A stretch of DNA of 64,000 bases, from contig NZ_CP119677.1 in the NCBI RefSeq assembly GCF_029318685.1, positions 1,652,001 to 1,716,000 on the forward strand, written 5' to 3'. The stretch's first letter is position 1, and each line of letters opens with the position of its first letter. Position numbers and translations under genes: made by a program. The notes under the pieces were generated by a model. The model searched no databases. It was not told where the DNA came from and worked only from the letters and a program-made list of their open reading frames with translations. Of the stretch, positions 12,365 to 27,844 are shown one piece after another. Source of the DNA: Ruminiclostridium papyrosolvens DSM 2782. GTDB lineage: Bacteria; Bacillota; Clostridia; Acetivibrionales; DSM-1351.

Positions 12365-12493
12365 ATGACCAAAAAGGAAATACTTGATGAAGTTATCGAA
12401 ATTCTTATAAAAAGAGCCTTGGAAGAAAAAACAATAGATTCAAGGGGTGAAAAAGAAAATGGAGTATATTCCTCCTCTGGTTACGGCAAATAG
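12365..12493 (+). CDS. Small protein overlapping the start of recombinase 2
   Basis: A 42-residue frame starts at ATG 12365, preceded by GGGGTGAG, and overlaps the recombinase 2 start in another frame, which suggests translational coupling. The N-terminal half is strongly helical and charged (MTKKEILDEVIEILIKRALE). No family is recognised. By position next to a recombinase it is a candidate regulatory or directionality partner. Confidence 0.5.
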   Translation: MTKKEILDEVIEILIKRALEEKTIDSRGEKENGVYSSSGYGK

Positions 12494-14072
12494 ATTTGAA
12501 CAGTATAATGATATCAAAAATTCCATAGGGGAAGTCGGCTTGGAAGTAGGAGGATACATACGAATATCAACTAAAAAAGACAGTCAAATAACTTCAATAG
12601 AAAATCAAAAAAAATATATATTAGAATGGGCAAGTGTTAATGGCTATAAAATAATAGATTTTTACATAGACATGAAAACCGGTGCGTACAGTTATCAGAG
12701 GCAGGAAATGGTAAAGATGAAAAACGATATTTCCTCCGGGAAAATAAAAGGAATTGTTTCAAAGGAAATATCCCGAACCTCACGTGACATACTTGACATA
12801 ATTGAACTTAAAAGGAGCCTTGCAAATCAAGGAGCTTTTTTTATTTCAATAAAGGAAGGTTATGACAGCAGGACTGACGATGATGAGTTTCTTTTGATAA
12901 TACATGCGGGACTTGCGCAAAAGGAGAGAAAAGTAACCGGTTCAAGAGTTAAAATAACACAGATGATAAAAGCACGAGAAGGTAAAACCAATGTACCGAT
13001 ACCGGCTTTTGGGTACAAGCTGTCTTCTGACGGACAGCATATTATTATTAATCCTTCAACAGCAGAGGTATACAAAATAATAGTTGATAAATTTCTTGAA
13101 GGCTGGGGCAGGCTTAAAATATGCAAATATCTTAGCTCAAAAGGAATAAGGACAAACAGAGGAAATGCCAGTTGGAGTACCAATTCCATATATGCAATTC
13201 TGACAAACCCCGTATACCTTGGTATAACCATGTATAACGTAACTCTGACAGTGCGGGACGATACAGGAAAGGCAAAAAGAATGGTAAGACCGCGTGAACA
13301 ATGGATTGTACGGGAGAATACTCATCAGCCCCTTATTACAAAAGAAAAATTTGATAGAATTCAACGAATAATTCAAGATAAAAAACAAAAAGACCAAAAG
13401 GAATGGAGCTGTACCAAGAAGTACCTTTTATCAGGGCTTGTTTACTGCGGTTCCTGCGGCAGTAAATTATACGGGGGAAAATTTCCTAAAAAGGAGGCAA
13501 AGTTGAAAAACAAGTCAGAAAGAACGCCGGAGGACTACTATTATTATTACTTTGATAGAAAGACATCAGGGCTATGTGGTAACAGTAAAGCAAATTACCA
13601 CATGGATATTCTTGAAAAAAAGGTAATTGAAAAGGTAAAGGAAATTCTTTTGTCCTATGACAAATTGGATGAAAGAATTAATAAGAAACAGTTCCTTTAC
13701 GAAAAAGGGTTTACAAGAGAAAAAATTGAGCATCAGCGACTTCAAGACAAGCTTGAAGCAGTTGCAAATGCAATAAGAAGACAACAGGCGGCATACGAGG
13801 AAGAAGTAATTACAATAGATGAATACAAAACACGGTTGGAGGAGCTTCGGCGTGAAAAGCTTTCACTGGAGGGCAGAATTGAAAAAATAAACACCATACC
13901 TGTAAAATCAAGTTCCTTAGAGCTGATAAACAAGGTAAAGGCTATTATATTCAATTTACATAATGCGGATTCGGATTTTCAATATGAAATAATTAGAAAA
14001 TTAATAAACAAGATATATATATATGATAATTGCTTTCTTGAATTTGAATATACTTTTAATGAATCAAATTAA
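12459..14072 (+). CDS. Large serine recombinase 2 (cotJC right element)
   Basis: This 537-residue recombinase has its resolvase motif GGYIRISTKKD (nucleophile about S37) after an unusual 30-residue N-terminal extension. A Recombinase domain and a zinc-ribbon segment starting LVYCGSCGSKLYGG follow, then a long C-terminal coiled coil. I prefer ATG 12459, with GGGGTG nine bases upstream, over GTG 12447, which overlaps that site. The stop codon is 20 bases from the right attachment core, and a cotJC segment ends immediately beyond at 14073. It should catalyse excision of the 4.68 kb GH44-carrying element. Confidence 0.93.
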   Translation: MEYIPPLVTANRFEQYNDIKNSIGEVGLEVGGYIRISTKKDSQITSIENQKKYILEWASVNGYKIIDFYIDMKTGAYSYQRQEMVKMKNDISSGKIKGIVSKEISRTSRDILDIIELKRSLANQGAFFISIKEGYDSRTDDDEFLLIIHAGLAQKERKVTGSRVKITQMIKAREGKTNVPIPAFGYKLSSDGQHIIINPSTAEVYKIIVDKFLEGWGRLKICKYLSSKGIRTNRGNASWSTNSIYAILTNPVYLGITMYNVTLTVRDDTGKAKRMVRPREQWIVRENTHQPLITKEKFDRIQRIIQDKKQKDQKEWSCTKKYLLSGLVYCGSCGSKLYGGKFPKKEAKLKNKSERTPEDYYYYYFDRKTSGLCGNSKANYHMDILEKKVIEKVKEILLSYDKLDERINKKQFLYEKGFTREKIEHQRLQDKLEAVANAIRRQQAAYEEEVITIDEYKTRLEELRREKLSLEGRIEKINTIPVKSSSLELINKVKAIIFNLHNADSDFQYEIIRKLINKIYIYDNCFLEFEYTFNESN

Positions 14073-14191: not shown

Positions 14192-14677
14192 TTAAACCTC
14201 CCGTCCTATTTCCCATGGCCATGGATTCTCAATCCATCTCCATGTTGATAAATCGTTATCCATGTGAGTGGCAGTCAGAGGGCCAAACCTCTTTGTAAAT
14301 TCAGACTCCAGCTTATTCTTCATTTCACGGTACTGTTTAAAGTATGCCAGTGCTGTTTTATCGGTGGGATGGGTATTGAGAAACAAACCTACTTCGACAC
14401 AGGCAAATTCATAAGCCTGAACCTTCCAAAGCAGTGCTTCACGTTCATTCATAGGCTTTGATTTGCTGGTCATGCCCATGTTTCCCATACCGCCGCAATC
14501 ATTCATGCCACCCATATTGTTCATGCCACCCATATTGTTCATGCCACCCATATTGTTCATGCCACCCATATGGTCCATACCACCCATATGGTCCATACCA
14601 CCCATATGGTCCATACCACCCATATTGTCTTTACCTGCCATATTACCCATACCGCCAACACCGGTGTTAGTATTCAT
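14192..14677 (-). CDS. cotJB: Spore coat protein CotJB with Gly-Met repeat arm
   Basis: This 161-residue coat protein is made in the mother cell. The C-terminal half is the CotJB domain (LLWKVQAYEFACVEVGLFL, then HPTDKTALAYF and a terminal PWPWE motif). The first 70 or so residues are an extra arm of about ten repeats of the type GGM-N/D-H/N-M, rich in Gly, Met, Asn and Asp, which ordinary CotJB proteins of about 90 residues lack. The start ATG 14677 overlaps the end of cotJA by 11 bases, so the two are translationally coupled. It is the second gene of the cotJABC operon. Confidence 0.92.
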   Translation of the reverse strand: MNTNTGVGGMGNMAGKDNMGGMDHMGGMDHMGGMDHMGGMNNMGGMNNMGGMNNMGGMNDCGGMGNMGMTSKSKPMNEREALLWKVQAYEFACVEVGLFLNTHPTDKTALAYFKQYREMKNKLESEFTKRFGPLTATHMDNDLSTWRWIENPWPWEIGREV

Positions 14678-15069: not shown

Positions 15070-16002
15070 TTGAATAAGCCTTCAAGAAAAGTTGTGACAG
15101 TACTTGTATCTATTACATGTGTTTTTGCTTTAGTAATTATTTTGGTATTTGCTACCAAGGGGAATACTCCCGGAGCTTTTGATAATAGTGCAAAGATAAA
15201 CGCAAAAGGGCAAGTCTATAATGCAGATTACTTATTTGAAAACAAAACTCCTTATGTGGGAAACAACAGCAAGGTTTTACATATTGTCGGAAACCTGCAG
15301 TTTAATAACTACATAGAAAAAGTATCACTTCAAACTGATAAAACTCCTTACGGAGTAACAGTCAACTATGATTTTCAAAATGTGGCTAATGGGGATTTCC
15401 AAAAGGCAAAAATAGAAAACGAAGAACGATTAAAACTTGCTTTTAAAAGAAACGCAGCAATGATGTTTTGTCTTATAGAAAATCTGGACATGCTAACATT
15501 TAGCTGTCGCACAATAAAAGGGACGGCTGAGTACGGATTTACCAGAAAAGAAGTACAAAAAGATTATAATGAAGATTTGAAAGAATATTCAAAGGATAAA
15601 AACAAGTTTGGCAGCTTTGCAATTACATTGAATAATGACAATATTATTGTACATTCAATGAAAAAATACTCTCCTGCCATGTCAAGTATATTTGGTTTGA
15701 AAATCATGTCTGCCTATGAAGGGAAAGCAGATAATATAAGATATACAGCCACGGAGGGTACACTAATGAGAGACATTAGTTCCGAAAATCGAGGAAAGAC
15801 ACTGACAGTTCCGGCGAATACGCCTATATACTGGAGTCCCTTGACCGGATATGATACAAGTTTAAAAACTGATAAAATTATTGTTAAAGTTGAAGCCCTT
15901 AACCAAGGGATAAAGATTGCGGAGCAAAAAGTTTGTATTAACAAGGATGGTTTAATGTATTCTATAGAAGAAAATACCAATGTGCTGGCAGATTTACAAT
16001 AA
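15070..16002 (+). CDS. DUF4825-like membrane-anchored protein
   Basis: This 310-residue protein has one N-terminal membrane anchor (about residues 8-28) and an outward-facing domain that begins YLFENKTPYVGNNSKVLHI. That resembles the DUF4825 domain found in some Firmicutes membrane proteins, including BlaR1-like ones. No enzyme motif is visible and its function is unknown. It starts at TTG 15070 behind GAGGAGGAAT and runs divergently from cotJABC. It sits between two mother-cell loci, so a sporulation role is possible but unproven. Confidence 0.65.
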   Translation: MNKPSRKVVTVLVSITCVFALVIILVFATKGNTPGAFDNSAKINAKGQVYNADYLFENKTPYVGNNSKVLHIVGNLQFNNYIEKVSLQTDKTPYGVTVNYDFQNVANGDFQKAKIENEERLKLAFKRNAAMMFCLIENLDMLTFSCRTIKGTAEYGFTRKEVQKDYNEDLKEYSKDKNKFGSFAITLNNDNIIVHSMKKYSPAMSSIFGLKIMSAYEGKADNIRYTATEGTLMRDISSENRGKTLTVPANTPIYWSPLTGYDTSLKTDKIIVKVEALNQGIKIAEQKVCINKDGLMYSIEENTNVLADLQ

Positions 16003-16115
16003 AATATTAAAATATTTATATTTGGACACGCATTATTTTTTTATTTTATCATAGAATGGAAAGGTACACTATTTTTGAGGTGTTAATTACTTCATTATCA
16101 TAGGGGGTGCCTTGC

Positions 16116-16458
16116 TTGATAGATATACTATTTTCAACTATCTTTGATGTATTAAGCAATTTTTTTGTAATGATTGGCTACGTATCAAATGTGAATTCCT
16201 TCCCCCAGCCATTAAAACCGGAGGAGGAACAATACTATGTTGAGGCATACAAAAATGGTAGTGAGGATGCAAGAAATATTCTTATAGAAAGAAACTTGAG
16301 ACTTGTTGCACACATTGTAAAAAAATACGGTTCGTGCGGCAGCGACAGTGATGATCTTATATCAATAGGTACTATTGGCCTAATTAAGGCAATATCTACA
16401 TTCAACATGGATAAAGGAACCCGTCTTGCTACATATGCTGCCAGGTGCATAGAAAATG
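16116..16458 (+). CDS. sigK: sigK, first segment (codons 1-114)
   Basis: N-terminal part of the late mother-cell sigma factor sigma-K. It has the hydrophobic pro-sequence (MIDILFSTIFDVLSNFF), the SFPQPL start of the mature protein, NLRLVAHIVKKY and DLISIGTIGLIKAI of region 2, and LATYAARCIEN. At ATAGAAAATG the reading frame leaves sigma-K and runs 25 codons through element DNA to a stop at 16532. I chose TTG 16116, eight bases after TAGGGGG; GTG 16107 overlaps that site. The pro-sequence implies processing by a SpoIVFB-type protease. Joined to the segments at 23048 and 27563 it gives a 236-residue protein (B. subtilis sigma-K is about 241). Confidence 0.95.
16454..16458. repeat. Left attachment core of the CODH-carrying sigK element
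   Basis: AAATG is shared with 23044-23048. The inner arm at 16461-16485 matches the reverse complement of the bases just left of 23041 at 19 of 25 positions, including ACAC, CGG and AACATT blocks. From memory the B. subtilis skin recombination core is AATGA at the corresponding place in sigK, so the same target codons appear to be used. Confidence 0.85.
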
Positions 16459-16491
16459 CTATTCTCACACAACGGAAACATTTTATATATG

Positions 16492-17262
16492 TTAAATATA
16501 GTACTCTGTCTTATCAGGGTCTTTCATATTAAATTCGGAGAATACCCTGTCACGGATTTTCAGAAAATCATGACTGGTTCTGTCACGTTTTCTCGCCAAC
16601 GGAACACTGACAATTGACTTAATTTTGCCGGGATTAGGCGTCATAATAACAATCCTGTCAGCAAGAAATACAGCTTCTTCAATATCATGAGTAACAAAAA
16701 TAATGGTCTTTTTTTGCTGTTCCCAGATATTTGAGATTTCATCCTGCATTTTAAGTCTTGTTAATGCATCCAAAGCACCGAAAGGCTCATCCATAAAAAT
16801 AATTTCAGGGTCAACAGCCAGAGCACGGGCTATTGCAACACGCTGCTGCATACCGCCTGATAACTGGGAGGGGTGACTTTTGCTGAATTTCGAGAGTCCT
16901 ACCAAATCAATGTATTTACTGGCGATATCATGTCTGTCTTTTTTTGATAGCTTTTTACTTTCCAAACCCAATTCTACATTTTTTTGCACCGACCTCCAAG
17001 GCAGAAGACCATAGTTCTGAAAAATGGTTACATTGCTGATGCAAGGCTCCAAGACCTGTTTGCCGTCTATTTCAATACTTCCGCTGTTAACCTTTTCAAA
17101 GCCTGCAACGGAGTTCAGAAGTGTAGTCTTACCGCAACCGCTTGGGCCAAGGAGGCATATAAACTCTCCTTTTTCAATTTGCAAGGATACGTGGTCCAAG
17201 GCTTTAAAAGTTGAATTATTTTGAAAATATTCCTTTGAAACATCCTTAATATCAATGAACAT
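16492..17262 (-). CDS. ABC transporter ATP-binding protein (SsuB/TauB type)
   Basis: This 256-residue ATPase powers the importer encoded with it. Walker A is GPSGCGKTT, the signature [15 protein letters not shown], Walker [14 protein letters not shown], and the switch histidine is in VTHDIEE. This matches the nitrate/sulfonate/taurine (NitT/TauT) family. I chose ATG 17262, preceded by GGAGGTAACA. The 5' end overlaps the end of the permease gene by 11 bases. Its stop codon lies 34 bases from the left attachment core, the first gene inside the element. Confidence 0.9.
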
Positions 17263-18019
17263 TGTTACCTCCAATAATTCCCCATCTTTTCAAGAGCTGC
17301 TTCTCTGCAAAACCTATAAAACTGTCCAAAACAAGTCCTATAAGCCCGATGGATAATATTCCTGCAAGTAATAAATCTGCCCTTAGATTGTTTCTTGCAT
17401 CAATAATCATAAAACCTAATCCTGTCTGAGCTCCTACCATTTCACCTGCCACCAGAAACACCCAGGCTGTACCTAAAGCTATATGTAGACCGGATGCAAT
17501 AACGGGAAAAGCGGAAGGGAGAATTATTTTAGTCAATAAATGAGGTTGGCCGATGCCAAAATTCTTTGCAACCTTAATATAGGTTTGGTCAACCTTTCCT
17601 ACAGCATTTACAGTGGTTAAAAGTACGGGGAAAAATGCTGCAATGAAAATAATAATAATGGCAGGAAGGTCACCTATTCCAAAAAGAAGTACAATAAAAG
17701 GAAACCATGCTATGGGTGAAATAGGTCTTACCAATTGGACAACTGGATTAACAAAGCTCCACGCATTTCTGAACCAACCCAGAACAAGACCCAGTGTAAT
17801 TCCTGCAAAGGCAGCCAGAAGATAGCCTATAAAAAATCTGTACATACTGGCCTTTACACCCGTAAAAAGAGTTCCTTCCGAAATAAGCTCTCCAAATCCC
17901 CTTCCAACATCAACAGGAGAGGGCAGCAGAGCTTGATTCCAGTGCCCCAAAGACACGGCTCCCTGCCATAAAAGCAATAATATTGTGAATGATACTAAAA
18001 TATGAATCAGTTTCTTCAT
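17252..18019 (-). CDS. ABC transporter permease (SsuC/TauC type)
   Basis: This 255-residue integral membrane protein has about six transmembrane helices and the EAA-like loop of NitT/TauT permeases ([19 protein letters not shown]). It forms the membrane channel for the substrate-binding lipoprotein upstream and the ATPase downstream. Start ATG 18019 has TGGAGAA nine bases upstream. It belongs to the minus-strand operon headed by cooS. Confidence 0.9.
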
Positions 18020-18035
18020 GAATTATTCTCCATTT

Positions 18036-18977
18036 TTATTTTTCTAAAAGGCTGGAATCTACAAAATCGTCATATGCCGGAGGATTTGAGGATATCCCGA
18101 ATTCTTTGATCTTGGAAGTAAGGCTGTCATATGCTTCTCTGGTAATTTTAAGGTCGTTGTATGAAATCCATTTCATTGACAAATCCAGAACCTTGTCGTC
18201 AAGCTTTAGATACTTCTTGGCAATAGTATTTGCCTCATCCTTGTGAGAACCGATGTATTCACCTGCTTCACTATAACCTGATACCACATTTTTTGCTAAA
18301 GCTTTGTTGCTGCTGATAAACTTGTCGGATAAAACCAAAGAGCAGCATATTGAATCCTTCCACAGTTCATTGGATTCAAAAAGTACTTTTCCTGTGTTCA
18401 GAGCCACGGACTTTGCACCAAAGGGCTCTGCAACACTATATCCCGCTATTTGGCCTTGAGCGAGAGCCGCAGGCATTTCCGGAGGAGGAAGTTCAACAAT
18501 ATTTACATCCTTGTAAGATAGTCCGGCATTTTTAAGCATTTGTCCCAAAAGGATATTATGAGAAGATTGTCTATGGGGAATGGCAAATTTCTTTCCTTTT
18601 AAATCCGTCACATTATTAATATTTTTGGATACAACTACAACGTTACCGTCCTTATGTCCCAGTGCTACCGCTTTAACGCCAACACCCTGCTCTTTTGCTT
18701 TCATGGCAAGCTCTATAAGCACCGAAGCCCCGTCAACATGCCCTGTGTTCAGGGCGTCCATCAATTCAGGCCATGAACCGTACTTGACCAGATCAATTTT
18801 ATATTTTTGCCCGGCTTTATCCGTTAATTCATTTTCTACAAACACAGGAAGTGCGTGAGTAATAGGAAGGTAGGCGATTTTAACGGCTTTTACATCTGCT
18901 GCAGATTTTCCACAGGCTGCAGTACCTGCAATTAGTCCAAAAACTAAAGCTGCTGCAATAAACTTTTTAAATTTCAT
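18036..18977 (-). CDS. ABC transporter substrate-binding lipoprotein (SsuA/NMT1-like)
   Basis: This 313-residue periplasmic-binding-type lipoprotein has a signal sequence ending IAGTAACG (lipobox cysteine near residue 22). The NMT1/SsuA-like fold is suggested by AYLPITHALPVFVE near the start and AIPHRQSSHNILL in the middle. Nitrate, sulfonate, taurine and bicarbonate binders all belong to this family, and sequence alone does not reveal the ligand. Its place directly after cooS suggests the ligand relates to CO dehydrogenase, for example a carbon compound or a metal complex, but that is speculation. Confidence 0.85.
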   Translation of the reverse strand: MKFKKFIAAALVFGLIAGTAACGKSAADVKAVKIAYLPITHALPVFVENELTDKAGQKYKIDLVKYGSWPELMDALNTGHVDGASVLIELAMKAKEQGVGVKAVALGHKDGNVVVVSKNINNVTDLKGKKFAIPHRQSSHNILLGQMLKNAGLSYKDVNIVELPPPEMPAALAQGQIAGYSVAEPFGAKSVALNTGKVLFESNELWKDSICCSLVLSDKFISSNKALAKNVVSGYSEAGEYIGSHKDEANTIAKKYLKLDDKVLDLSMKWISYNDLKITREAYDSLTSKIKEFGISSNPPAYDDFVDSSLLEK

Positions 18978-19000
18978 AGTTATTCCTCCATATAATCATT

Positions 19001-20992
19001 TTAATCCCATCCCAGAGCTTTTCTCTGCTGCTTGAGGTTATTGACAATCTCATGTGCCAATTCTGTGTGATTAACATTGACAATCATTTTTGAACCCAAA
19101 ATGTCTTTGGTTCCATTACTCATAAATTCTGTAACATTATCTGAGCCTTGAGTGGGTGCATATACACAATGGTAAGAATCAATCCCCAGCAATCTGAAAC
19201 TAAGAGCCGCACAGATTCCTTTTTCGTTAGACCATTCGGGACTGGCAAAAGCATAGGGCATATCTTTGATGTAAATATCCGAAGTCTCAGCTACAGCCTT
19301 AAAAAGTGCGGATGCTCTTGCATTATCCAAACATTCTCCCATATGCCATACGGGGGGAAGCTCCTTTAAAAATCCTTTCAAGCTGTCCCCTGTGCGCTCC
19401 AATGCCGAAGCAGAGCAGTACCCGAGTTTCATAAGAGGAAAGGAAGCACACCCGTTAGTCAGAACCAGAACATTATTCTCCAGAAGAATGTCCGTAAGCT
19501 CAACAATAGCTTTTTCATATACAATACGTGGATTATTGCAGCCAACAAGATTAACAATACCGAGAATTTCTCCTCTTTTCAGCGCTTCTGCAATAGGCTT
19601 TACGCTTCCGAAATGTTTATTGATATATTCAACGGAAAAACCTACTTCTGCTTCAATTTCATACGGCGGAATATAAACAGGAACCTCTCTTCTCTGGGTA
19701 AAGCTTTCAATAGCTCTGTTCAGAATCTTTGCTGCAAGTTCAGCAGTCTGATTCATATTAGAGTGGTGATGGTCAAAACCGTAATGCTCTGCGCCGGGCA
19801 ATCTTGCAGAGTCATTTGTGGTAACAACAGTTGTTTTAAAACATCGTGCAACCTCCATGATGGAAGGAAAAACATCCTGAACATCAGCTACCCATAAATC
19901 CAAGGCCCCTGTTCCCAGAACAAGTTCAGCCCCGATAGCATTAGAAAGGGGAATAACCCCTCCATACCTGTACATTGCAGAAAGTCCTGAACAGCAAATG
20001 CCGTAAAACTTGATTCCCAAAGCACCGTTTTGTTTTGCAAGCTCTTGAAACTCATCTGAATTACCAAGCTTTACAATTTCACTTACCAAAATCGGAGAGT
20101 GACCATGAATTGCAATATTAACATAGCCTTTTTCCAAAGCACCTATATTAACTTTTGAAGTACTTCTTACAGGCAGTCCGAACAGGCTGTCCATAGCAAT
20201 GGAGGAGCCCAGAACACAGGACCATGCAAAGGCTATACCTGTACGCAGCATTTGTTTCATTATATTATTCCAATCACTGTCATTACCCGTACCTGTTCTG
20301 TTAAGACTCTCAAAGACTTCGTGGTAAGGACTGATAGGAAGAATATCAAGTTCACTCCATACTTTAATTCGTTCCTTTGCAGCAAATGCATTGAGAGTAC
20401 GGTGTGGGCCCGGAAGAGTTCTGGACAAATCCTCCAGAAGAATATCCGCAATTAGTCCGGCAAGTTCCTTAATGCTTTTATTTTCAGTGTCAATACCGAA
20501 TGCTTTGGCGGTGGCTAATACTTTACTTTCTCCCTCAATAGAAATATTGATTAAACCTTCAGAGGCGTACTTCAAAGCCAGCATACTTTCACGGCCTCTT
20601 CCGCCGTGTTCTGCGGCGCCTGCAGCTACACTTCTTAGAAGATTTCTTGCTACAATTACATCAGCATCAGCTCCACAGACCCCTTTGGGACTCTTTTTGG
20701 TGATTTTACACGGCCCCATGTTGCATATTTTGCAGCAAACTCCTGCAAGGCCAAAGCTACACTGGGGCTTTTGAGCATCAAACCTGTCAAAAACAGTCTC
20801 ACACCCTTTTTCCTCCATATATAAAAGCATAGCTTTTACAGCAGGGTCTGGTGTTTGTTCAAGAACGTCCTTTTTAGAAGCAAAACTCTTTCGGTATTCA
20901 GCTACGGCAGTTGCATAATCGTTGCAGCCGGAATCATTATGATGATGATTTTCTGAATGATCAAATTTTGCATGATGATATCTAAAATCCAT
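19001..20992 (-). CDS. cooS: Anaerobic Ni-Fe carbon monoxide dehydrogenase CooS
   Basis: This 663-residue homodimeric CO dehydrogenase oxidises CO to CO2 at a Ni-4Fe-5S C-cluster. The B/D-cluster cysteines are in CSFGLAGVCCKICNMGPCK, followed by GVCGADADVIVARN. IHGHSP carries the catalytic histidine, and C-cluster ligands are visible in GICCSGL, LVGCNNPR, TNGCASFP and MGECLDNAR. EWSNEKG carries the catalytic lysine. The N-terminus is unusually His-rich (eight His in the first 20 residues), perhaps for nickel handling. No cooF ferredoxin, cooC or acetyl-CoA synthase gene is adjacent; instead an ABC importer follows 23 bases downstream. AAGGAGAGAG precedes ATG 20992. Confidence 0.95.
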   Translation of the reverse strand: MDFRYHHAKFDHSENHHHNDSGCNDYATAVAEYRKSFASKKDVLEQTPDPAVKAMLLYMEEKGCETVFDRFDAQKPQCSFGLAGVCCKICNMGPCKITKKSPKGVCGADADVIVARNLLRSVAAGAAEHGGRGRESMLALKYASEGLINISIEGESKVLATAKAFGIDTENKSIKELAGLIADILLEDLSRTLPGPHRTLNAFAAKERIKVWSELDILPISPYHEVFESLNRTGTGNDSDWNNIMKQMLRTGIAFAWSCVLGSSIAMDSLFGLPVRSTSKVNIGALEKGYVNIAIHGHSPILVSEIVKLGNSDEFQELAKQNGALGIKFYGICCSGLSAMYRYGGVIPLSNAIGAELVLGTGALDLWVADVQDVFPSIMEVARCFKTTVVTTNDSARLPGAEHYGFDHHHSNMNQTAELAAKILNRAIESFTQRREVPVYIPPYEIEAEVGFSVEYINKHFGSVKPIAEALKRGEILGIVNLVGCNNPRIVYEKAIVELTDILLENNVLVLTNGCASFPLMKLGYCSASALERTGDSLKGFLKELPPVWHMGECLDNARASALFKAVAETSDIYIKDMPYAFASPEWSNEKGICAALSFRLLGIDSYHCVYAPTQGSDNVTEFMSNGTKDILGSKMIVNVNHTELAHEIVNNLKQQRKALGWD

Positions 20993-21046
20993 TATATGCT
21001 CTCTCCTTAATAATCCATAGAAATCCGGTAAAAATAGTATGAATTG

Positions 21047-21075
21047 ATTATAATAAGTGAATAATAAAAAGTCAA
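21047..21075 (-). promoter_or_regulatory. Sigma-A promoter of the cooS operon
   Basis: On the minus strand TTGACT (21070-21075) and TATAAT (21047-21052) are 17 bases apart, about 55 bases upstream of the cooS start. It should drive cooS and the ABC transporter in vegetative cells. Confidence 0.75.
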
Positions 21076-21194
21076 TGATATTTTTATATAATTCATATAT
21101 AATTACTATGTAATTAAAAGAATTCTCTTAAACACATTTGTACGAGTAGTACTGTCATATAGTTAAACAGCAACTAAATCATGGAGTTCTCAGA

Positions 21195-21383
21195 ATGGGG
21201 AAGCATAAAAATGAATATGAAATTATTATTTTTACTCCTGAGAAGAATGAACAAGAAATGTATCTGAAAAATGAAATAGGGAGAGCATATGGTGAATTTA
21301 TAATTAAACATCTGATTAATTCAGAAATTCCTGATAAACAAATTTCTAGTATCTTTAGAAAAATAATAAAAGAAATCAGGTGA
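21195..21383 (+). CDS. Small protein before recombinase 3
   Basis: A 62-residue charged protein starts at ATG 21195, eight bases after GGAG, and ends seven bases before recombinase 3, so the two form an operon. The C-terminal part has EIPDKQISSIFRKIIKE, faintly like the SDKQLSELL stretch of the small protein before recombinase 1. No family is recognised. It is a candidate directionality factor or regulator for the first sigK element, by position only. Confidence 0.6.
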   Translation: MGKHKNEYEIIIFTPEKNEQEMYLKNEIGRAYGEFIIKHLINSEIPDKQISSIFRKIIKEIR

Positions 21384-21390
21384 TTTATTT

Positions 21391-23049
21391 ATGAGGGCTG
21401 CAATCTATTCCAGAAAAAGCAGGTTTACAGGGAGAGGAGAGAGTATAGAAAATCAGATTCAAATGTGTAAAGAGTATGCCATAAACAATATTGGATTAAC
21501 AGAAAATGATTTTGTAATTTTTGAAGACGAAGGATTTTCGGGAGGAAATACAAACAGACCGGAGTTCAGGCAAATGATGCGGGAAGCACGAAGCAAAAAA
21601 ATCGACATAGTAATTTGCTACAGGTTGGATCGTATAAGCAGAAACGTATCTGATTTTTCTCAGCTCATAAATGAACTTGAAAAATATAAAGTGAGCTTTA
21701 TTTCTGTTAAGGAACAGTTTGATACAACAAAACCAATGGGTAGGGCTATGATGTATATAGCATCGGTTTTTTCTCAGTTGGAAAGAGAGACTATTGCGGA
21801 AAGAATAAGAGACAATATGCTGCAGCTTGCAAAAACAGGAAGATGGTTGGGTGGTGTTACCCCCACCGGTTATAAATCCGAAATGCTCAATAAAAAGGAT
21901 TCGTCTTTGAAACAAACAAGAATTTTCAGGCTTAAAGTCATTCCTGAAGAAGCCGAACTTGTAAAAGAAATTTATGATAAATTTATTATTTTCAAATCAC
22001 TGACCAAGGTAGAAAAAAGTCTTCTTGAAAACAGACTTACAACAAAAAACGGTGTGGATTTTTCAAGGTTCTCTCTGAGATTTTTACTTACAAATCCTGT
22101 ATATGCAATTGCTGATGGGGCTCTGTACCGCTATTTATCAGAGCAGGGGTATGAAATATATTCTGACATAAAGGAATTCAACGGTGTTAACGGGCTTATG
22201 GCCTACAACAAAACAAGGCAGGGCAAAAACACATCCGGTGACAAGTACAGAGAGCCGAAGGAGTGGATAATAGCCGTAGGAATGCACCCGGGAATCATAC
22301 CTTCAGGTAAATGGATAGAAGTTCAGGAAGTGTTGCAGCGTAACAAAAGCAAAGCTTACAGGAACGTTAAAAGTACCAATGCACTTCTGTCGGGGATACT
22401 AAAATGTGAAAACTGCGGTAGCTTTATGAGGCCTAAAATCATGACAAGGCTGGATTCGGAAGGGGAAAAAGTTTATTACTATATTTGTGAATTAAAGGAA
22501 AAAAGTAATAAAACACGCTGCGATGCTCCAAATATAAACGGTAATATATTGGATTCCTTAATACTTGAAAGACTTATCAGCATCATAAATGACTATCCTC
22601 CGGCAGTTAATCCCGGATTATTATTGACTCTGAATTATAATACACAGGCTGCTAAAAATCCTGAAATAAAGCTAATAAGAGGAAAACTCGCATCAGCAGA
22701 AACAGAAATGAAGAACCTTATTAAACTTGCAGCCAAGCAGGCAGACGAAAAGGTACAATCCTTGATATTAAAGCGTATGGAGAATATAGCAAAAAATATC
22801 AATATATACACAAACAAAATAAAACAGTTGGATGGTGTACAGGAACAAACGGACCTTGAAGAACATAACGAAGAAAAAATAATACAAATGTTGTCAGACC
22901 CCGGTTACTGCATTATGAATCTAATAGATATAAAGCAAAAAAGAGAGCTTTTAAAAAGTGCAATTGAATTTATTGCATGGGACGGCAGACAGGTGAAGGT
23001 TTGGCTTAACTACGGTAGAATGTTGCCGGAGTGTAAGGATTGCAAATGA
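21391..23049 (+). CDS. Large serine recombinase 3 (first sigK element)
   Basis: This 552-residue serine recombinase has the resolvase motif [13 protein letters not shown] (nucleophile S10), [14 protein letters not shown], the [10 protein letters not shown] helix, a Recombinase domain, a zinc-ribbon segment starting [12 protein letters not shown], and a C-terminal coiled coil. It is the SpoIVCA counterpart for the CODH element. Unusually, its stop codon TGA (23047-23049) lies in the AAATG attachment core. In the excised circle the frame would read through and gain 12 residues. Transcription runs in the same direction as sigK. Confidence 0.94.
23044..23048. repeat. Right attachment core of the CODH-carrying sigK element
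   Basis: This second copy of AAATG overlaps the recombinase 3 stop codon on one side and the first codon of the sigK middle segment on the other. Symmetric placement of the inner arms puts the crossover centre on the AA at repeat positions 2-3. Confidence 0.85.
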
Positions 23050-23134
23050 GATTCTAATGCAAATCAGAGCATCCAAGAAAATTCAGAATGAAGTTTCACT
23101 GCAAGACCCTATAGGTGTTGATAAAGAGGGTAAT
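23048..23134 (+). CDS. sigK: sigK, middle segment (29 codons)
   Basis: These 87 bases encode the sigma-K linker that begins [11 protein letters not shown] and ends [14 protein letters not shown], the stretch between regions 2 and 3/4 that is conserved across SigK/SigE proteins. It has no start codon of its own and is followed by an unrelated reading (CSCCIPCC). Frame phase matches both neighbours: codon 115 begins with the G of AAATG, and the next codons GAA ATA ACA are shared with 27563. It can only make sense as the middle of a gene cut twice. Confidence 0.94.
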
Positions 23135-23144
23135 GAAATAACAT
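23135..23144. repeat. Left attachment core of the GH127-carrying sigK element
   Basis: GAAATAACAT is repeated exactly at 27563-27572. The inner arm TTCATGTTGTATACCTT (23146-23162) matches the reverse complement of 27537-27553 (TTCATATTGTATACTTT) at 15 of 17 bases. Confidence 0.9.
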
Positions 23145-23308
23145 GTTCATGTTGTATACCTTGTTGCAACTCGCTAGCTTAAGTCGTGATGACTTTTTAC
23201 CACCTATTCTGTGAAAAATCCATTTAAATTAAGTATATTAATTGGTAAACTGAATTAAAGTACAATTAAACTGTTAAAGGGGCGCTTATTACGATTAAAT
23301 CATTTTCT

Positions 23309-25540
23309 ATGTCACAGGTGAAGCTGATTGATCCTTATTTGGTAAATGCATTCAAAAAGGAAATAGAGTATCTGGAAGCCTTCGACTGCGACAAACTATT
23401 ATCCTGCTTTTATATTACAAAAGGCCTTACACCTAAAGCGGAAAACTACCGGGGATGGGAGAATACAGAAATCAGAGGACACACCATGGGGCACTATCTG
23501 ACGGCTTTGGCACAAGCTTATTCTGCTACTAATGATAGCAAAATATATGAACGGCTGCAATATTTGATGAAGGAGCTTTCTTTGTGTCAATTTGAAAGTG
23601 GGTATCTATCTGCATTTCCTGAGGAGTTTTTTGACAGGGTTGAAAACAGAAAACCTATATGGGTACCTTGGTATACAATGCATAAAATAATTACAGGGCT
23701 AATATCTGTATATAAACTCGCTAAAATTGAAACAGCACTAAAAATAGTTTCCCGACTGGGAGAATGGGTATTTAGCAGAACTGACAAATGGACACCTGAA
23801 ATACATGCAAATGTTTTGGCTGTGGAATACGGTGGTATGAACGATTGCATGTATGAACTTTATAAGATATCAGGAAATGAAAAACACTGTACTGCTGCCC
23901 ATATGTTTGATGAAATAGAGCTTTTCAAGGAAATTCATGACGGAAAAGATATACTTAACAACAGGCACGCAAATACTACAATACCAAAATTTTTGGGTGC
24001 TTTGAACCGTTATCTGGCTATTGGAGAAGAGGAACAGTTCTATCTTGATACATGTAAAGAGTTCTGGAGTATTGTAACAAATAACCATAGCTATGTTACA
24101 GGAGGAAACAGTGAATGGGAACATTTCGGCGAACCTGGTATTCTGGATGCAGAGCGTACTTCAACTAATTGTGAAACCTGCAATACCTATAATATGCTTA
24201 AAATGACAAGAGAGTTGTTTAAAATTACCGGGAACAAAAAATATGCCGATTTTTATGAAAATACCTTTACCAATGCAATATTATCCTCACAAAACCCTGA
24301 TACAGGAATGACTATGTACTTTCAACCCATGGAAACTGGTTATTTCAAGGTTTATGGTAAACCTTTCGAGCATTTTTGGTGCTGTACCGGAACAGGTATG
24401 GAAAATTTCACTAAATTAAATAACAGTATTTATTTTTATGAAGAAGACAGGCTGTACGTTAATATGTATTACTCCACGGAGTTAAACTGGGAGGAAAAGG
24501 GGGTAAAGCTTACTCAGAATTCTGATATACCCGGTACTGACAGGGCTGGTTTTACAATCAAAGCAGAAACAGGAGCAGAGTTCACATTATGTATGCGTAT
24601 TCCTACCTGGGCAAAGGGAGTAAAAATCAATGTAAATAATAATTTAAGCATATTCACAGAAGAAAGAGGTTATGCACTAATTCACCGCACTTGGAAAGAT
24701 AATGATACTGTTGAAATCATTTTTAAAATTGAACCCCAACTGTCAACTTTACCCGATAATCCAAATGCAGTTGCATTTACTTACGGGCCGGTTGTATTAA
24801 GCGCCGGACTTGGGGCAGATGAAATGGAAGAGTCAACTACCGGAGTTATGGTAACAATTCCAAGCAAGCATGTGGAAATAAAAGATTATTTAGTTATTAT
24901 GAATCAAAGCGTTGATGAATGGAAAAAGGATATTGCATTGAACCTTAAAAAAGCCGAGGGCAAACTGGAGTTCCGGCTAAATGGTACCGACGAAGATGGA
25001 AGGCTGGTTTTTACCCCTCATTACAGACAGCATAGCCAGAGGTACGGAATATATTGGCTTCTTGTGGAGGATGGTTCAGATGAGCTGAACAAATACATTG
25101 ATGAGAAGAAAAAAGTTGAAGACATCAAATCGGCAGAGATAGACAGCATACAGATTGGCAATGACCAATATGAACTGTCCCATGGTATTGAGGGCCAATA
25201 TACAGAGTCAGGCGATAGGGATGGATTCCATTATAGATTTGCAAAACAGAAGGGCTGGTTCAGTTATAACTTAAAGGCTAGAAATCATGAGAACTCTTTT
25301 CTGCAAATTAATTATATGCCGGCAGACTGTAAAGCGGGTTTTGATATATTAATAAATGATACTCTGCTTTCACGGGAAGTTATAGGAGAAACTCCTTGGA
25401 ATAAAACAGTTTCCAAGATATACCATATCCCAAAAGAATTGATTGGTGACAGAGATTATGTCACTGTTAAAATCATGGCTTCAGAGAAGGAAGCAACTGC
25501 AAGGGTAATTGATATTCTTCGTACAATGAAAGCAGTGTAA
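23309..25540 (+). CDS. GH127-type beta-L-arabinofuranosidase (DUF1680)
   Basis: This 743-residue (alpha/alpha)6-barrel hydrolase is expected to release beta-L-arabinofuranose or a related sugar from plant glycans. Family features include GWENTEIRGHTMGHYLTAL near the N-terminus, TSTNCETCNTYNMLK, and FWCCTGTGMENFTKL. The last holds the paired cysteines, one being the zinc-bound thiolate nucleophile known for GH127. There is no signal peptide, so it acts in the cytoplasm on imported oligosaccharides. ATG 23309 has no close ribosome binding site. An AAAGGGG at about 23276-23282 would suit an in-frame ATT at 23288, so the start is uncertain. It is the only metabolic cargo of the second sigK element. 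Confidence 0.87.
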   Translation: MSQVKLIDPYLVNAFKKEIEYLEAFDCDKLLSCFYITKGLTPKAENYRGWENTEIRGHTMGHYLTALAQAYSATNDSKIYERLQYLMKELSLCQFESGYLSAFPEEFFDRVENRKPIWVPWYTMHKIITGLISVYKLAKIETALKIVSRLGEWVFSRTDKWTPEIHANVLAVEYGGMNDCMYELYKISGNEKHCTAAHMFDEIELFKEIHDGKDILNNRHANTTIPKFLGALNRYLAIGEEEQFYLDTCKEFWSIVTNNHSYVTGGNSEWEHFGEPGILDAERTSTNCETCNTYNMLKMTRELFKITGNKKYADFYENTFTNAILSSQNPDTGMTMYFQPMETGYFKVYGKPFEHFWCCTGTGMENFTKLNNSIYFYEEDRLYVNMYYSTELNWEEKGVKLTQNSDIPGTDRAGFTIKAETGAEFTLCMRIPTWAKGVKINVNNNLSIFTEERGYALIHRTWKDNDTVEIIFKIEPQLSTLPDNPNAVAFTYGPVVLSAGLGADEMEESTTGVMVTIPSKHVEIKDYLVIMNQSVDEWKKDIALNLKKAEGKLEFRLNGTDEDGRLVFTPHYRQHSQRYGIYWLLVEDGSDELNKYIDEKKKVEDIKSAEIDSIQIGNDQYELSHGIEGQYTESGDRDGFHYRFAKQKGWFSYNLKARNHENSFLQINYMPADCKAGFDILINDTLLSREVIGETPWNKTVSKIYHIPKELIGDRDYVTVKIMASEKEATARVIDILRTMKAV

Positions 25541-25656
25541 ATAAGATGATGTTTGATATTCAGTAATTGCTATGACATAAGGGGTTGAATCGAATTTCTT
25601 TTGAAACAGCCTCCTTATATCATTTATTACCATTATAAAAATCCTGCCCATGTTAC

Positions 25657-27219
25657 CTAAATGTTTTGTGCCATGGCATGAAAGGGAGGACACTGTATTT
25701 TAGGATACAATGCGATTTTAAAATCATCAGCTCCTGCATCGGGTTCTTTGCTATATACTACTTTATCCAGTACTGATTTTATAAGCAGATTTTTATCCGA
25801 AGGAGAATCCATTTTTATATAGGCATCTAAAACACTTCTAAGTTTAATGATATAATCCTGATTAGCTGTAAGCTTCAGTTCAATATCATGTAATTGCCTT
25901 TCCGATTCTGACATAGAATTGTCTATTTGAGTGATTTTTCCCGAGATATAGTTTGTTCTTTCCGTAAAGGTGTCTATATCATATATGCCTTGTTCCAATA
26001 AATCAAAGGCCTTAACTTTTTGCTGTTCCAGTGTTTTTAGTTCATTTTCCAACGATGTTATATTTTTTTTAATTAGTAAGGATTTTGTTGGCTCTCTCAT
26101 TTGGGATGTTTTTTTTGCACTGAGCAGCATGTTGGAATAATAGCTTTCAAGTCTCTCAAGCAATAAGTTTTCTACGGTTATAAACTTGTTGCTTTTCTGG
26201 CCGCAGCTTTTGGGGCACATAATTCTAGGGGCTTTGTTTGCTACAGGACGTTGAATCATTTTGCTGCCGCAAATGCCGCAAATAACAATACCTGCAAGAG
26301 GATTCGCAATACGGTTTTTAAGCTGATAGGGTACATGATATTTCTGAGCCAGAATTTCCTGAGCCTTTAGATATATTGATTCTTCTATTATTGCTTTATG
26401 CTTTCCATTGCATACAATCCATTCGTCAGCGGGTCTGGTATATGTGTCTCTCTTTTTTCCGGATTCTTTCGACTTGCGAATGCATTTTTTCTTCCAGACA
26501 AGTTTCCCGATGTAAATGGGGTTTTTAATCAAATTAGTTATGGTGGATTTTTCCCACTCGGCGCCTGTATATGATTTTATACCCAGTTGGTTAAGCTCGT
26601 TGGCAATTTTACTGCAGCCCATGTTTTCATTTACGTACCCGTTAAATATCATTTTTACAACATCTGCTTGTTGTGAATTTGGTGTTAATGTTCTGGTGTT
26701 TTTATCGATTCTTAAAACATCATATCCATATGGAGGTCTCGTTGCAATATAATTTCCTTCTTCAACCGAATTAATTCTGCCTCGCTGCATTCGTCGGTTA
26801 ATCATTTTATATTCTTTACGACTCATAAAGGCTTCAAATTCACTATATTCCTCATCAAATTCGTCATTGAGGTCGTAAATTTTTTTGGGTGTGATTATTT
26901 TAGTATTAGATTTTTTAAAGGCCTTTAGAATAAGCCCCTGCTCTTCCATGTCACCACGTCCGAGCCTTTGAATATCCATTACAAGCACACCGTCACAGGC
27001 ACCGGCTTCTACATCTTTTAATGTAGCAAGCATTGCAGGCCTGAAAAATAATTCTTCTCCGGATACAAGTTCTTCATGGATATTTAAAATTGTAAGCCCG
27101 TTTTCTTTTGCATATCTTAATAGGGCTTTGCGATGTCTGGCAAGGGTTTCACCATTTCCTAATGTCTTTTCCAGCTCTTCATCAGATCTTGATTTCCTCA
27201 GGTAGATATCAACTATCAT
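25657..27219 (-). CDS. Large serine recombinase 4 (second sigK element)
   Basis: This 520-residue serine recombinase begins with a resolvase domain (IYLRKSRSDEE, nucleophile S10; GVLVMDIQRLGRGDMEEQG). A Recombinase domain with PPYGYDV, a zinc-ribbon segment starting IVICGICGSKMIQRP, and a coiled coil follow. ATG 27219 has AGAAGGGA upstream. It is transcribed opposite to sigK, from near the right boundary inward, and should excise the GH127 element. Its sequence is clearly unlike recombinases 1-3, which implies a separate origin and its own site specificity. Confidence 0.94.
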   Translation of the reverse strand: MIVDIYLRKSRSDEELEKTLGNGETLARHRKALLRYAKENGLTILNIHEELVSGEELFFRPAMLATLKDVEAGACDGVLVMDIQRLGRGDMEEQGLILKAFKKSNTKIITPKKIYDLNDEFDEEYSEFEAFMSRKEYKMINRRMQRGRINSVEEGNYIATRPPYGYDVLRIDKNTRTLTPNSQQADVVKMIFNGYVNENMGCSKIANELNQLGIKSYTGAEWEKSTITNLIKNPIYIGKLVWKKKCIRKSKESGKKRDTYTRPADEWIVCNGKHKAIIEESIYLKAQEILAQKYHVPYQLKNRIANPLAGIVICGICGSKMIQRPVANKAPRIMCPKSCGQKSNKFITVENLLLERLESYYSNMLLSAKKTSQMREPTKSLLIKKNITSLENELKTLEQQKVKAFDLLEQGIYDIDTFTERTNYISGKITQIDNSMSESERQLHDIELKLTANQDYIIKLRSVLDAYIKMDSPSDKNLLIKSVLDKVVYSKEPDAGADDFKIALYPKIQCPPFHAMAQNI

Positions 27220-27367
27220 TTAAGCATATTCCCTTCTTTTAAGTTTGAATATCCTTATTTCCAGTTTATACACTTAAAACAATATATAGACTTGTATCTA
27301 CCAATGAAATAATCATTGAATAATGTACAAACAATTCAAAATAGGTATATAGTGGAGGTGAATTTCA

Positions 27368-27514
27368 GTGGCGATAGCAGTGATTATCCCACCAAAGATA
27401 ACACCTGAAGAAAACGAGAAAAGCATTAAAGAACTGGAGAGAGTTTTATCAAATATTTTTAAATGTGAGATAGATATCTCTTTCACTAACAGCATAAAGA
27501 GTCATTCTACATAA
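27368..27514 (+). CDS. Small protein divergent from recombinase 4
   Basis: A 48-residue frame starts at GTG 27368 behind GGAGGTG and ends about 50 bases before the right attachment core. It contains an amphipathic helix (PEENEKSIKELERVLSNIF). It lies within the element, divergent from recombinase 4, with a shared 150-base upstream region. No family is recognised. It is a candidate directionality factor or repressor by position. Confidence 0.55.
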   Translation: MAIAVIIPPKITPEENEKSIKELERVLSNIFKCEIDISFTNSIKSHST

Positions 27515-27562
27515 CAAATTTTTTTATAGGGTTTAAAAAGTATACAATATGAAGAAGTCAAC

Positions 27563-27572
27563 GAAATAACAT
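27563..27572. repeat. Right attachment core of the GH127-carrying sigK element
   Basis: This second copy of GAAATAACAT encodes the EIT of NEITLID in sigma-K. The inner arm is at 27537-27553. Symmetric arms would centre the crossover on the GA at repeat positions 1-2. Confidence 0.9.
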
Positions 27573-27844
27573 TGATAGACTTAATAAGTAATGATTCCGA
27601 GTCCGTAGTGGATGAAGTTGAATTGAAAATGCAGGTTAAAAAACTGTATAGTAAAATGAAAGGTACTTTGAAAAACAGGGAAAAGGTAGTCTTAGAATTA
27701 AGATACGGACTCCTTAACGGCTCAAGTAAAACTCAGAGAGAAATAGCTAAAATGTTGGGAATCTCCAGATCCTACGTATCAAGAATAGAAAAGAAAGCAA
27801 TAAAAAAATTAAGCAAAGAGCTGAAACCGGAGGGCTGCCATTAA
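27563..27844 (+). CDS. sigK: sigK, last segment (93 codons)
   Basis: C-terminal part of sigma-K with the region 4 DNA-binding domain. It begins EITLIDLISNDSESVVDEVE and contains LKNREKVVLELRYGL and the helix-turn-helix KTQREIAKMLGISRSYVSRI. The frame is open a few codons upstream but is not sigma-K there, and a stop lies at 27527. A TTG at 27572 would allow a lone 90-residue peptide, but no ribosome binding site precedes it, so this is not an independent gene. The stop codon lies inside a palindromic terminator. Confidence 0.95.
   Translation, partial: EITLIDLISNDSESVVDEVELKMQVKKLYSKMKGTLKNREKVVLELRYGLLNGSSKTQREIAKMLGISRSYVSRIEKKAIKKLSKELKPEGCH

Follow-up and report, generated by a model that had tools for sequence, protein, structure and literature searches.

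The sigK gene encodes sigma-K, the last mother-cell sigma factor in sporulation. In Ruminiclostridium papyrosolvens DSM 2782, this gene was analyzed in a window of 64,000 nucleotides (NZ_CP119677.1, positions 1,652,001 to 1,716,000 of the forward strand), which is part of a single host chromosome of 5,027,861 bases. All coordinates below refer to the window. The gene is divided into three exons, which are separated by two inserts named here element A and element B (Table 1). The initial annotation, made from the sequence alone, had described three sigK segments at this locus. They are real and lie where it had placed them, except that the last base of exon 1 is 16457, because 16458 is already part of the repeat shared by the two ends of the insert. 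Its proposal that joining across both cuts gives a complete sigma-K was confirmed. The joined exons (342 + 87 + 282 nt) form a single frame of 236 codons and a stop. With TIGR02846, the NCBIfam equivalog model for SigK, the product reached 355.5 bits, above the curated cut-off of 298.65. When tested singly, exon 1 (169 bits) and exon 3 (105.6 bits) were both below the cut-off.

Each of the two cuts, at 16457/16458 and 23134/23135, lies on codons for Asn-Glu-Ile (AAT GAR ATH), a tripeptide that the joined SigK contains only at residues 114 and 143. Sites A and B read AAATGAGAT and AATGAAAT, respectively. The short repeats annotated at the two cuts, AAATG for element A and GAAATAACAT for element B, were found again at both ends of each insert. 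The 5-bp core of the B. subtilis skin element is AATGA. If only element A were removed, the reading frame would have 158 codons; if only element B or neither were removed, it would have 138 codons. Since an unbroken frame needs the removal of both A and B, it follows from the sequence that formation of sigma-K would be a logical AND of two removals, as a consequence of the reading frames. The AND gate of the initial annotation holds in this sense. Of two relatives described below, one has element A only (G006) and one an intact sigK (G003). Direct joining of exon 1 to exon 3 also keeps the frame.

The genome contains no intact second sigK that was detectable with exons 1, 2 and 3; these searches gave only SigE-like and other sigma factors. 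Besides itself, the best match of exon 1 was a SigE-like gene (50% identity, E 1e-25), and exon 3 had one match only at E ≤ 1e-20.

Table 1. Features of the interrupted sigK locus of R. papyrosolvens DSM 2782.
Feature	Position	Strand	Description
sigK upstream region	16000..16115	+	contains block GAAAGGTACACTA
sigK exon 1	16116..16457	+	TTG start, pro-sequence, ends ...ARCIEN
attL-A core AAATG	16454..16458	+	
Element A	16458..23047		6,590 bp, separates exon 1 from exon 2
ABC transporter ATPase, taurine/nitrate-type by family matches	16492..17274	-	cargo; below specific families' curated cut-offs
ABC transporter permease	17252..18019	-	cargo; matches below specific families' curated cut-offs
ABC transporter substrate-binding protein, SsuA-like	18036..18977	-	cargo; TIGR01728 151.8 bits, cut-off 163.5
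Anaerobic CO dehydrogenase catalytic subunit	19001..20992	-	cargo; TIGR01702 508.3 bits, cut-off 478
Candidate directionality factor RDF-A (62 aa)	21195..21383	+	directly before LSR-A; putative function
Large serine recombinase LSR-A (552 aa)	21391..23049	+	Resolvase, Recombinase, Zn ribbon domains
attR-A core AAATG	23044..23048	+	
sigK exon 2	23048..23134	+	29 codons, EILMQ...DKEGN
attL-B core GAAATAACAT	23135..23144	+	
Element B	23135..27562		4,428 bp, separates exon 2 from exon 3
GH127 beta-L-arabinofuranosidase-like enzyme (743 aa)	23309..25540	+	cargo; PF07944 343.5 bits
Large serine recombinase LSR-B (520 aa)	25657..27219	-	resolvase and recombinase domains
Candidate directionality factor RDF-B (48 aa)	27368..27514	+	GTG start after GGAGGTG; divergent from LSR-B; putative function
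attR-B core GAAATAACAT	27563..27572	+	
sigK exon 3	27563..27844	+	EITLID... through stop

Recombinases, attachment sites and small genes

Each insert encodes its own large serine recombinase (LSR), as had been annotated. The two elements, called unrelated in the initial annotation, are indeed different, but their recombinases are distant members of one superfamily, with 20.9% identity and the same Pfam domains. In the case of LSR-B, the resolvase and recombinase domains scored above the cut-off and the zinc ribbon slightly under it; Ser10 is invariant in 8 rows of the LSR-B family. The stop codon of LSR-A overlaps the attR-A core. Both elements share three features of the skin type: they interrupt a mother-cell sporulation gene whose frame is recovered by joining across a short repeat, they encode an intact site-specific recombinase of their own, and their attP arms form inverted repeats. 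In the window, these repeats comprise 22 pairs for element A and 20 pairs for element B, and none of 2000 arm shuffles was as good in either case. The corresponding values for G007, the other doubly cut genome of the genus, were 23 pairs (0/2000) and 19 pairs (2/2000). The weakest of ten attP sites tested, that of element A in G001, had 18 pairs (6/2000). No inverted repeat of the attP kind was found in attB, the site in the rejoined gene. Prophage-like content was not found: no phage genes were recognised in either element, the family-matched cargo is metabolic, and PHROG results were obtained for the recombinases and RDF-B only.

Conserved small genes are located in both elements at the places expected for directionality factors, and their products, RDF-A and RDF-B, may serve in this role. 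With an iterated profile, a relative of RDF-A was detected upstream of LSR-A and on the same strand at 14 of 17 LSR-A loci, including all 9 of Ruminiclostridium, with E-values that are inflated by the matches added into the profile. Plain tblastn revealed only close relatives and those at L083, L087, L089 and L103. The iterated profile of RDF-B revealed relatives at most 2.6 kb from the 5' end of LSR-B at 39 of 105 LSR-B-family loci, a set that includes repeat views of one gene; two of these 39 loci are from C. difficile.

A second recombinase of the LSR-B family (47% identity) is encoded elsewhere in the same genome, at G000:C1:3186396-3187901 (L080), together with a divergent RDF-B-like small gene. 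Loci similar to L080 are present in other genomes of the genus, some of the matches having internal stops. No sporulation gene was recognised by eye among the neighbours of L080, of which no family-library search was made.

Intact, singly and doubly cut sigK

The genus sample consisted of 11 Ruminiclostridium genomes, with G000 being that of the window. One locus of G001 matches the Ruminiclostridium cellobioparum record L119 at 100% identity across 4,524 bases. The sigK gene is intact in one of them (G003), cut at site A alone in seven (G001, G002, G004, G005, G006, G009 and G010), and cut at both sites, with the same two junctions, in G000 and G007. In G008, exon 1 is cut at site A beside a relative of LSR-A, and exons 2 and 3 were not found in the fragmented assembly. 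Altogether, 10 of these 11 genomes have a cut sigK. The double cut is not a chance event, because both junctions recur in G007. Exon 1 of the window is 83-98% identical to that of the other 10 genomes, and the block GAAAGGTACACTA upstream of sigK is invariant across the 10 genomes aligned (G008 left out). An excerpt of a 2016 paper describes skin elements in clostridia as an exception (PMC5025042), yet sigK is cut in all but one of the genomes of this genus sample, which suggests that split sporulation genes are overlooked by annotation.

The size of element A ranges from 2.1 kb (G004) to 16.4 kb (G005) across the genus. In G004, the only genes recognised in it are LSR-A and a relative of RDF-A, the smallest set that a functional excision module would be expected to have. 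In G009, site A is occupied by another recombinase, which shares 36% identity with LSR-A and is encoded on the opposite strand. As side observations, element A of G005 (L065) carries about eight extra open reading frames of at least 120 aa between exon 1 and the usual cargo, and at L086 and L099 the site A region of sigK is held, a few codons off, by recombinases outside the LSR-A family (24-30% identity to that of the window).

The genome G006 has a clean empty B site. Identity in the SigE region is 96.7% between G006 and G007 and 94.5% between G000 and G007. The branching of the LSR-A tree matches that of the SigE-region tree, where G006 is joined to G007 and G000 lies outside (support 0.82); the short sigK-exon tree pairs G000 with G007 instead (support 0.86). 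Since element B is present in G000 and G007 and absent from G006, one of three histories would account for it: clean loss from G006, two gains, or transfer along with sigK.

The double cut is not confined to Ruminiclostridium. Exon 2, used as a query, matched 52 of the 57 genomes from the order and 247 of 393 genomes sampled from the class. Leads to further genomes came from the short open frames around exon 2 and from a scan of named genomes with the LSR-B alignment (best 80 of 299 relatives). At least five genomes outside the genus, from four named genera and G187, have a doubly cut sigK, with uneven quality and completeness; for the class sample, the number of such cases is at least that noted here. 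The initial annotation was aware of no other sigK with two independent insertions. A literature search of partial coverage gave no report recognised as a doubly cut sigK either, and the arrangement is apparently unreported, but it is not unique to R. papyrosolvens. Multiply cut genes as such have already been published for heterocyst-forming cyanobacteria.

In Pseudobacteroides cellulosolvens (L103), one contig contains the three sigK pieces in order with relatives of LSR-A and LSR-B. Exon 2 has a frame break in the deposited sequence (L103:12809-12936), either a sequencing error or decay. Anaerobacterium chartisolvens (G025; L083, L188, L102) has exon 1, LSR-A, exon 2 and a B arm like that of the window. 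The contig stops about 84 bases past this arm; LSR-B (61% identity) lies on a different contig, where no search for exon 3 was made. In Anaerosolibacter carboniphilus (L121, L193), exon 1 is on a separate contig, and in Candidatus Petromonas tenebris (G400; L092, L113, L194), a metagenome bin, exon 1 is on the strand opposite to exons 2 and 3. The sigK pieces of G187 (L093, L191, L094) are spread over several contigs; this is the weakest case, because a second partial copy reads uninterrupted across both sites.

Relatives of LSR-A and LSR-B are present in all seven doubly cut genomes, and in other genera such relatives are found at site A and site B, respectively; LSR-B is 47-51% identical to recombinases adjoining site B there. 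The LSR-A family had matches in 39 of the 393 class genomes, with a sigma-K-like piece at 21 of 30 fetched loci (two of these pieces weak, 36-37% identity). The LSR-B family is the broader one, with sigK pieces found in the flank at 20 of 80 loci (the best 80 of 299 relatives) and at 3 of 22 loci of a second set, some of which overlap the first. On an LSR-B tree of 21 rows, in which the A. chartisolvens row does not carry the label 'double', this label needs 5 changes, at least 3 of them forced by well-supported branches. It is unclustered, with 247 of 500 shuffles as low.

Several rearrangements were observed near these genes. At L102:11492-13195 of A. chartisolvens, an ABC-transporter permease gene is joined to the end of an LSR-B element; the junction peptide, NEITSSCC, is the same as at the sigK exon 2 of this species, which suggests a second insertion or a copy. 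At L107:11490-13568 of Petroclostridium sp. X23 (the L097 locus) and at L138:2881-6917, sigK exons 1 and 2 and exon 3 lie head to head, with an LSR-B-family gene adjoining. The GGTAATGA cores at L107 and L138 are in opposite orientation, so inversion, not excision, would restore sigK in these cases. Exon 1 of Candidatus Petromonas is inverted at site A (L113). G014 (L090, L091) has one intact sigK and several partial copies.

Excision in the mother cell and alternative explanations

The comparison of G000 with G007 revealed purifying selection on the three exons and on both recombinases. Amino acid differences were found in 1 of 114 codons of exon 1, 0 of 29 of exon 2 and 0 of 93 of exon 3, at synonymous divergence (dS) of 0.26-0.55. 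The ratio of nonsynonymous to synonymous divergence (dN/dS) was 0.13 for LSR-A, 0.18 for LSR-B, 0.12 for the GH127 gene and 0.04 for the CO dehydrogenase gene. For LSR-A, the ratio was 0.12-0.14 against G002, G005, G006 and G007 (dS was saturated against four others).

Based on these data, we propose that elements A and B are both excised in the mother cell, each removal being needed for sigma-K, with a probability of roughly 0.86. Element A, at ...CIEN/EILM..., and element B, at ...KEGN/EIT..., would represent two compact skin-type elements within sigK. In that cell, a small directionality factor encoded by each element would turn the large serine recombinase of the element towards excision, and the recombinase would recombine its own attL with attR. 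The element would leave as a circle, and the gene would be rejoined. The unbroken 236-codon pro-sigma-K frame would exist only after both excisions; the cut copy would be inherited through the forespore, and the rejoined copy lost with the dying mother cell. One gene would then supply two pairs of a recombinase and a small protein with different attachment sites.

The proposal was compared with known systems, which are cited here from excerpts of the respective papers. Single sigK elements have been described in B. subtilis, C. difficile, C. tetani, C. perfringens, the B. cereus group and Alicyclobacillus (sources including PMC5025042 and PMC10745906). The closest parallel to element B is the C. 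difficile element skinCd, which occupies the same KEGN/EI place in sigK. The enzyme LSR-B shares 48-49% identity with the CD1231-like site-B recombinases of two C. difficile loci (L122, L145), and the elements at both loci encode a small protein of the RDF-B profile family. In C. difficile, CD1231 and CD1234 are reported to be necessary and sufficient for excision, with CD1234 being a factor of 72 residues and pI 5.5 that depends on sigma-E and SpoIIID (PMC5025042). The C. difficile relative of RDF-B is 83 residues long when read from its first ATG and 72 when read from an internal GTG, with a computed pI of 4.9 (strain CD160). It would probably correspond to CD1234, having the length stated for that factor, but the pI values differ (4.9 against 5.5). 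Because recombinase and factor excise the C. difficile element, mother-cell excision would be expected for each element of R. papyrosolvens. In contrast to skinCd, element B measures 4.4 kb, its cargo is a single carbohydrate enzyme, no phage genes were recognised in it, and a second element lies 87 bp upstream of it. Moreover, the C. difficile SigK has no pro-sequence (PMC5025042), whereas that of R. papyrosolvens retains it.

Element A resembles the B. subtilis skin (SpoIVCA, Skr) in that it interrupts sigK and has a gene of 62 codons just before the recombinase. The Skr protein, with 64 residues (PMC6957869), is comparable to RDF-A in size and place, a likeness drawn from its description. 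The skin differs in being a single phage-like element of 48 kb (PMC10745906). Like elements A and B, the gin element in gerE of B. cereus is a non-phage element in a mother-cell gene; it needs a factor of 42 aa beside a recombinase (PMC5595907), but it is one element of 28.6 kb with three recombinases in one gene. Several elements in one gene of terminally differentiating cells are known from heterocyst cyanobacteria, where 10 of 87 interrupted genes are of this kind and nifD of Rivularia is cut by four elements (PMC4874684); the phylum, the genes and the cell type are different.

Some results weigh against the proposed excision of both elements. Pfam has no family for RDF-A or RDF-B, and in PHROGs no match was obtained for RDF-A and only a weak one for RDF-B, to a PHROG with no function (E 0.003). 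The RDF-A profile found no relative at 3 of 17 loci (L084, L092 and L121), two of which, L092 and L121, are in doubly cut genomes. A search with a simple sigma-E-like pattern for sigma-E/SpoIIID promoters gave scattered matches, none convincing at the small genes. Finally, most LSR-B-family genes are away from sigK, with no sigK piece in the flank at 60 of the best 80 of 299 loci and at 19 of 22 loci of the second set.

If both elements do excise, the question is what they are for. They are probably selfish or cargo-bearing tenants, for which a gene used only by a dying cell would be a cost-free harbour, and the AND logic would have no regulatory value. The lack of element B in G006, which is very close to G007, and the intact sigK of G003 argue for this explanation, as do the different recombinase at site A of G009, the 2.1 kb minimal element of G004, the variation of cargo by species, and the unclustered 'double' label on the LSR-B tree. 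Against it, G000 and G007 have retained both cuts at a dS near 0.35-0.52, and their recombinases are under purifying selection. In addition, when the C. difficile element is deleted, sigma-K becomes active prematurely and the surface layers of the spore are altered, according to an excerpt of PMC5025042.

The opposite explanation is that the second cut is kept for a delayed or more faithful onset of sigma-K, with separate triggers of excision. The recurrence of the double cut in several genera and the difference between the candidate directionality factors of the two modules are consistent with it. However, the close relative G006 lives without element B, and the pattern search gave no promoter evidence for separate control. 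We consider this explanation unlikely, and the one in which the elements are tenants more likely. A wider proposal, possible but doubtful, is that sigK evolved repeatedly into a two-lock switch. In this proposal, each of two recombinase families would hold one Asn-Glu-Ile site with its own directionality factor, sigma-K would be made only after both acted in the mother cell, and one lock would invert in some relatives. The occurrence of intact, singly cut and doubly cut sigK within one cellulose-degrading genus offers a direct test between a regulatory device and a harmless tenant.

The possibility that sigK is permanently broken and sporulation is no longer completed is very slight. The gene is interrupted as assembled, and exon 2 of P. 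cellulosolvens has a frame break as well, but the strong purifying selection on the three exons and both recombinases speaks against a dead sigK, which was rejected on this ground, and an excerpt of PMC10701907 describes spore formation in members of the genus. The genus is not known to be pathogenic. Slighter still is the chance that the ends of A and B recombine with each other, dropping both elements together with exon 2 and giving a shorter in-frame sigma factor. The exon 1-exon 3 junction is in frame, and the sites AAATGAGAT and AATGAAAT share the Asn-Glu-Ile codons; on the other side, the recombinases and attP arms differ between the elements, and the amino acids of exon 2 are unchanged between G000 and G007. 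No evidence was found for an assembly or rearrangement artefact at one of the breaks, and this possibility is ruled out in practice by the published complete genome, for which an excerpt of PMC10701907 gives next-generation and PacBio sequencing, and by the identical arrangement of the locus in G007.

A third large serine recombinase is encoded in the window at 12447-14072, 2 kb upstream of sigK. No common repeat of 9-16 bases was found in its flanks, and a gene 63% identical to it lies upstream of sigK in G008 (L068:1573-3225). The product of the gene at 14192-14677 on the reverse strand begins with a long repeat of the Gly-Gly-Met type and is coat protein-like by eye.

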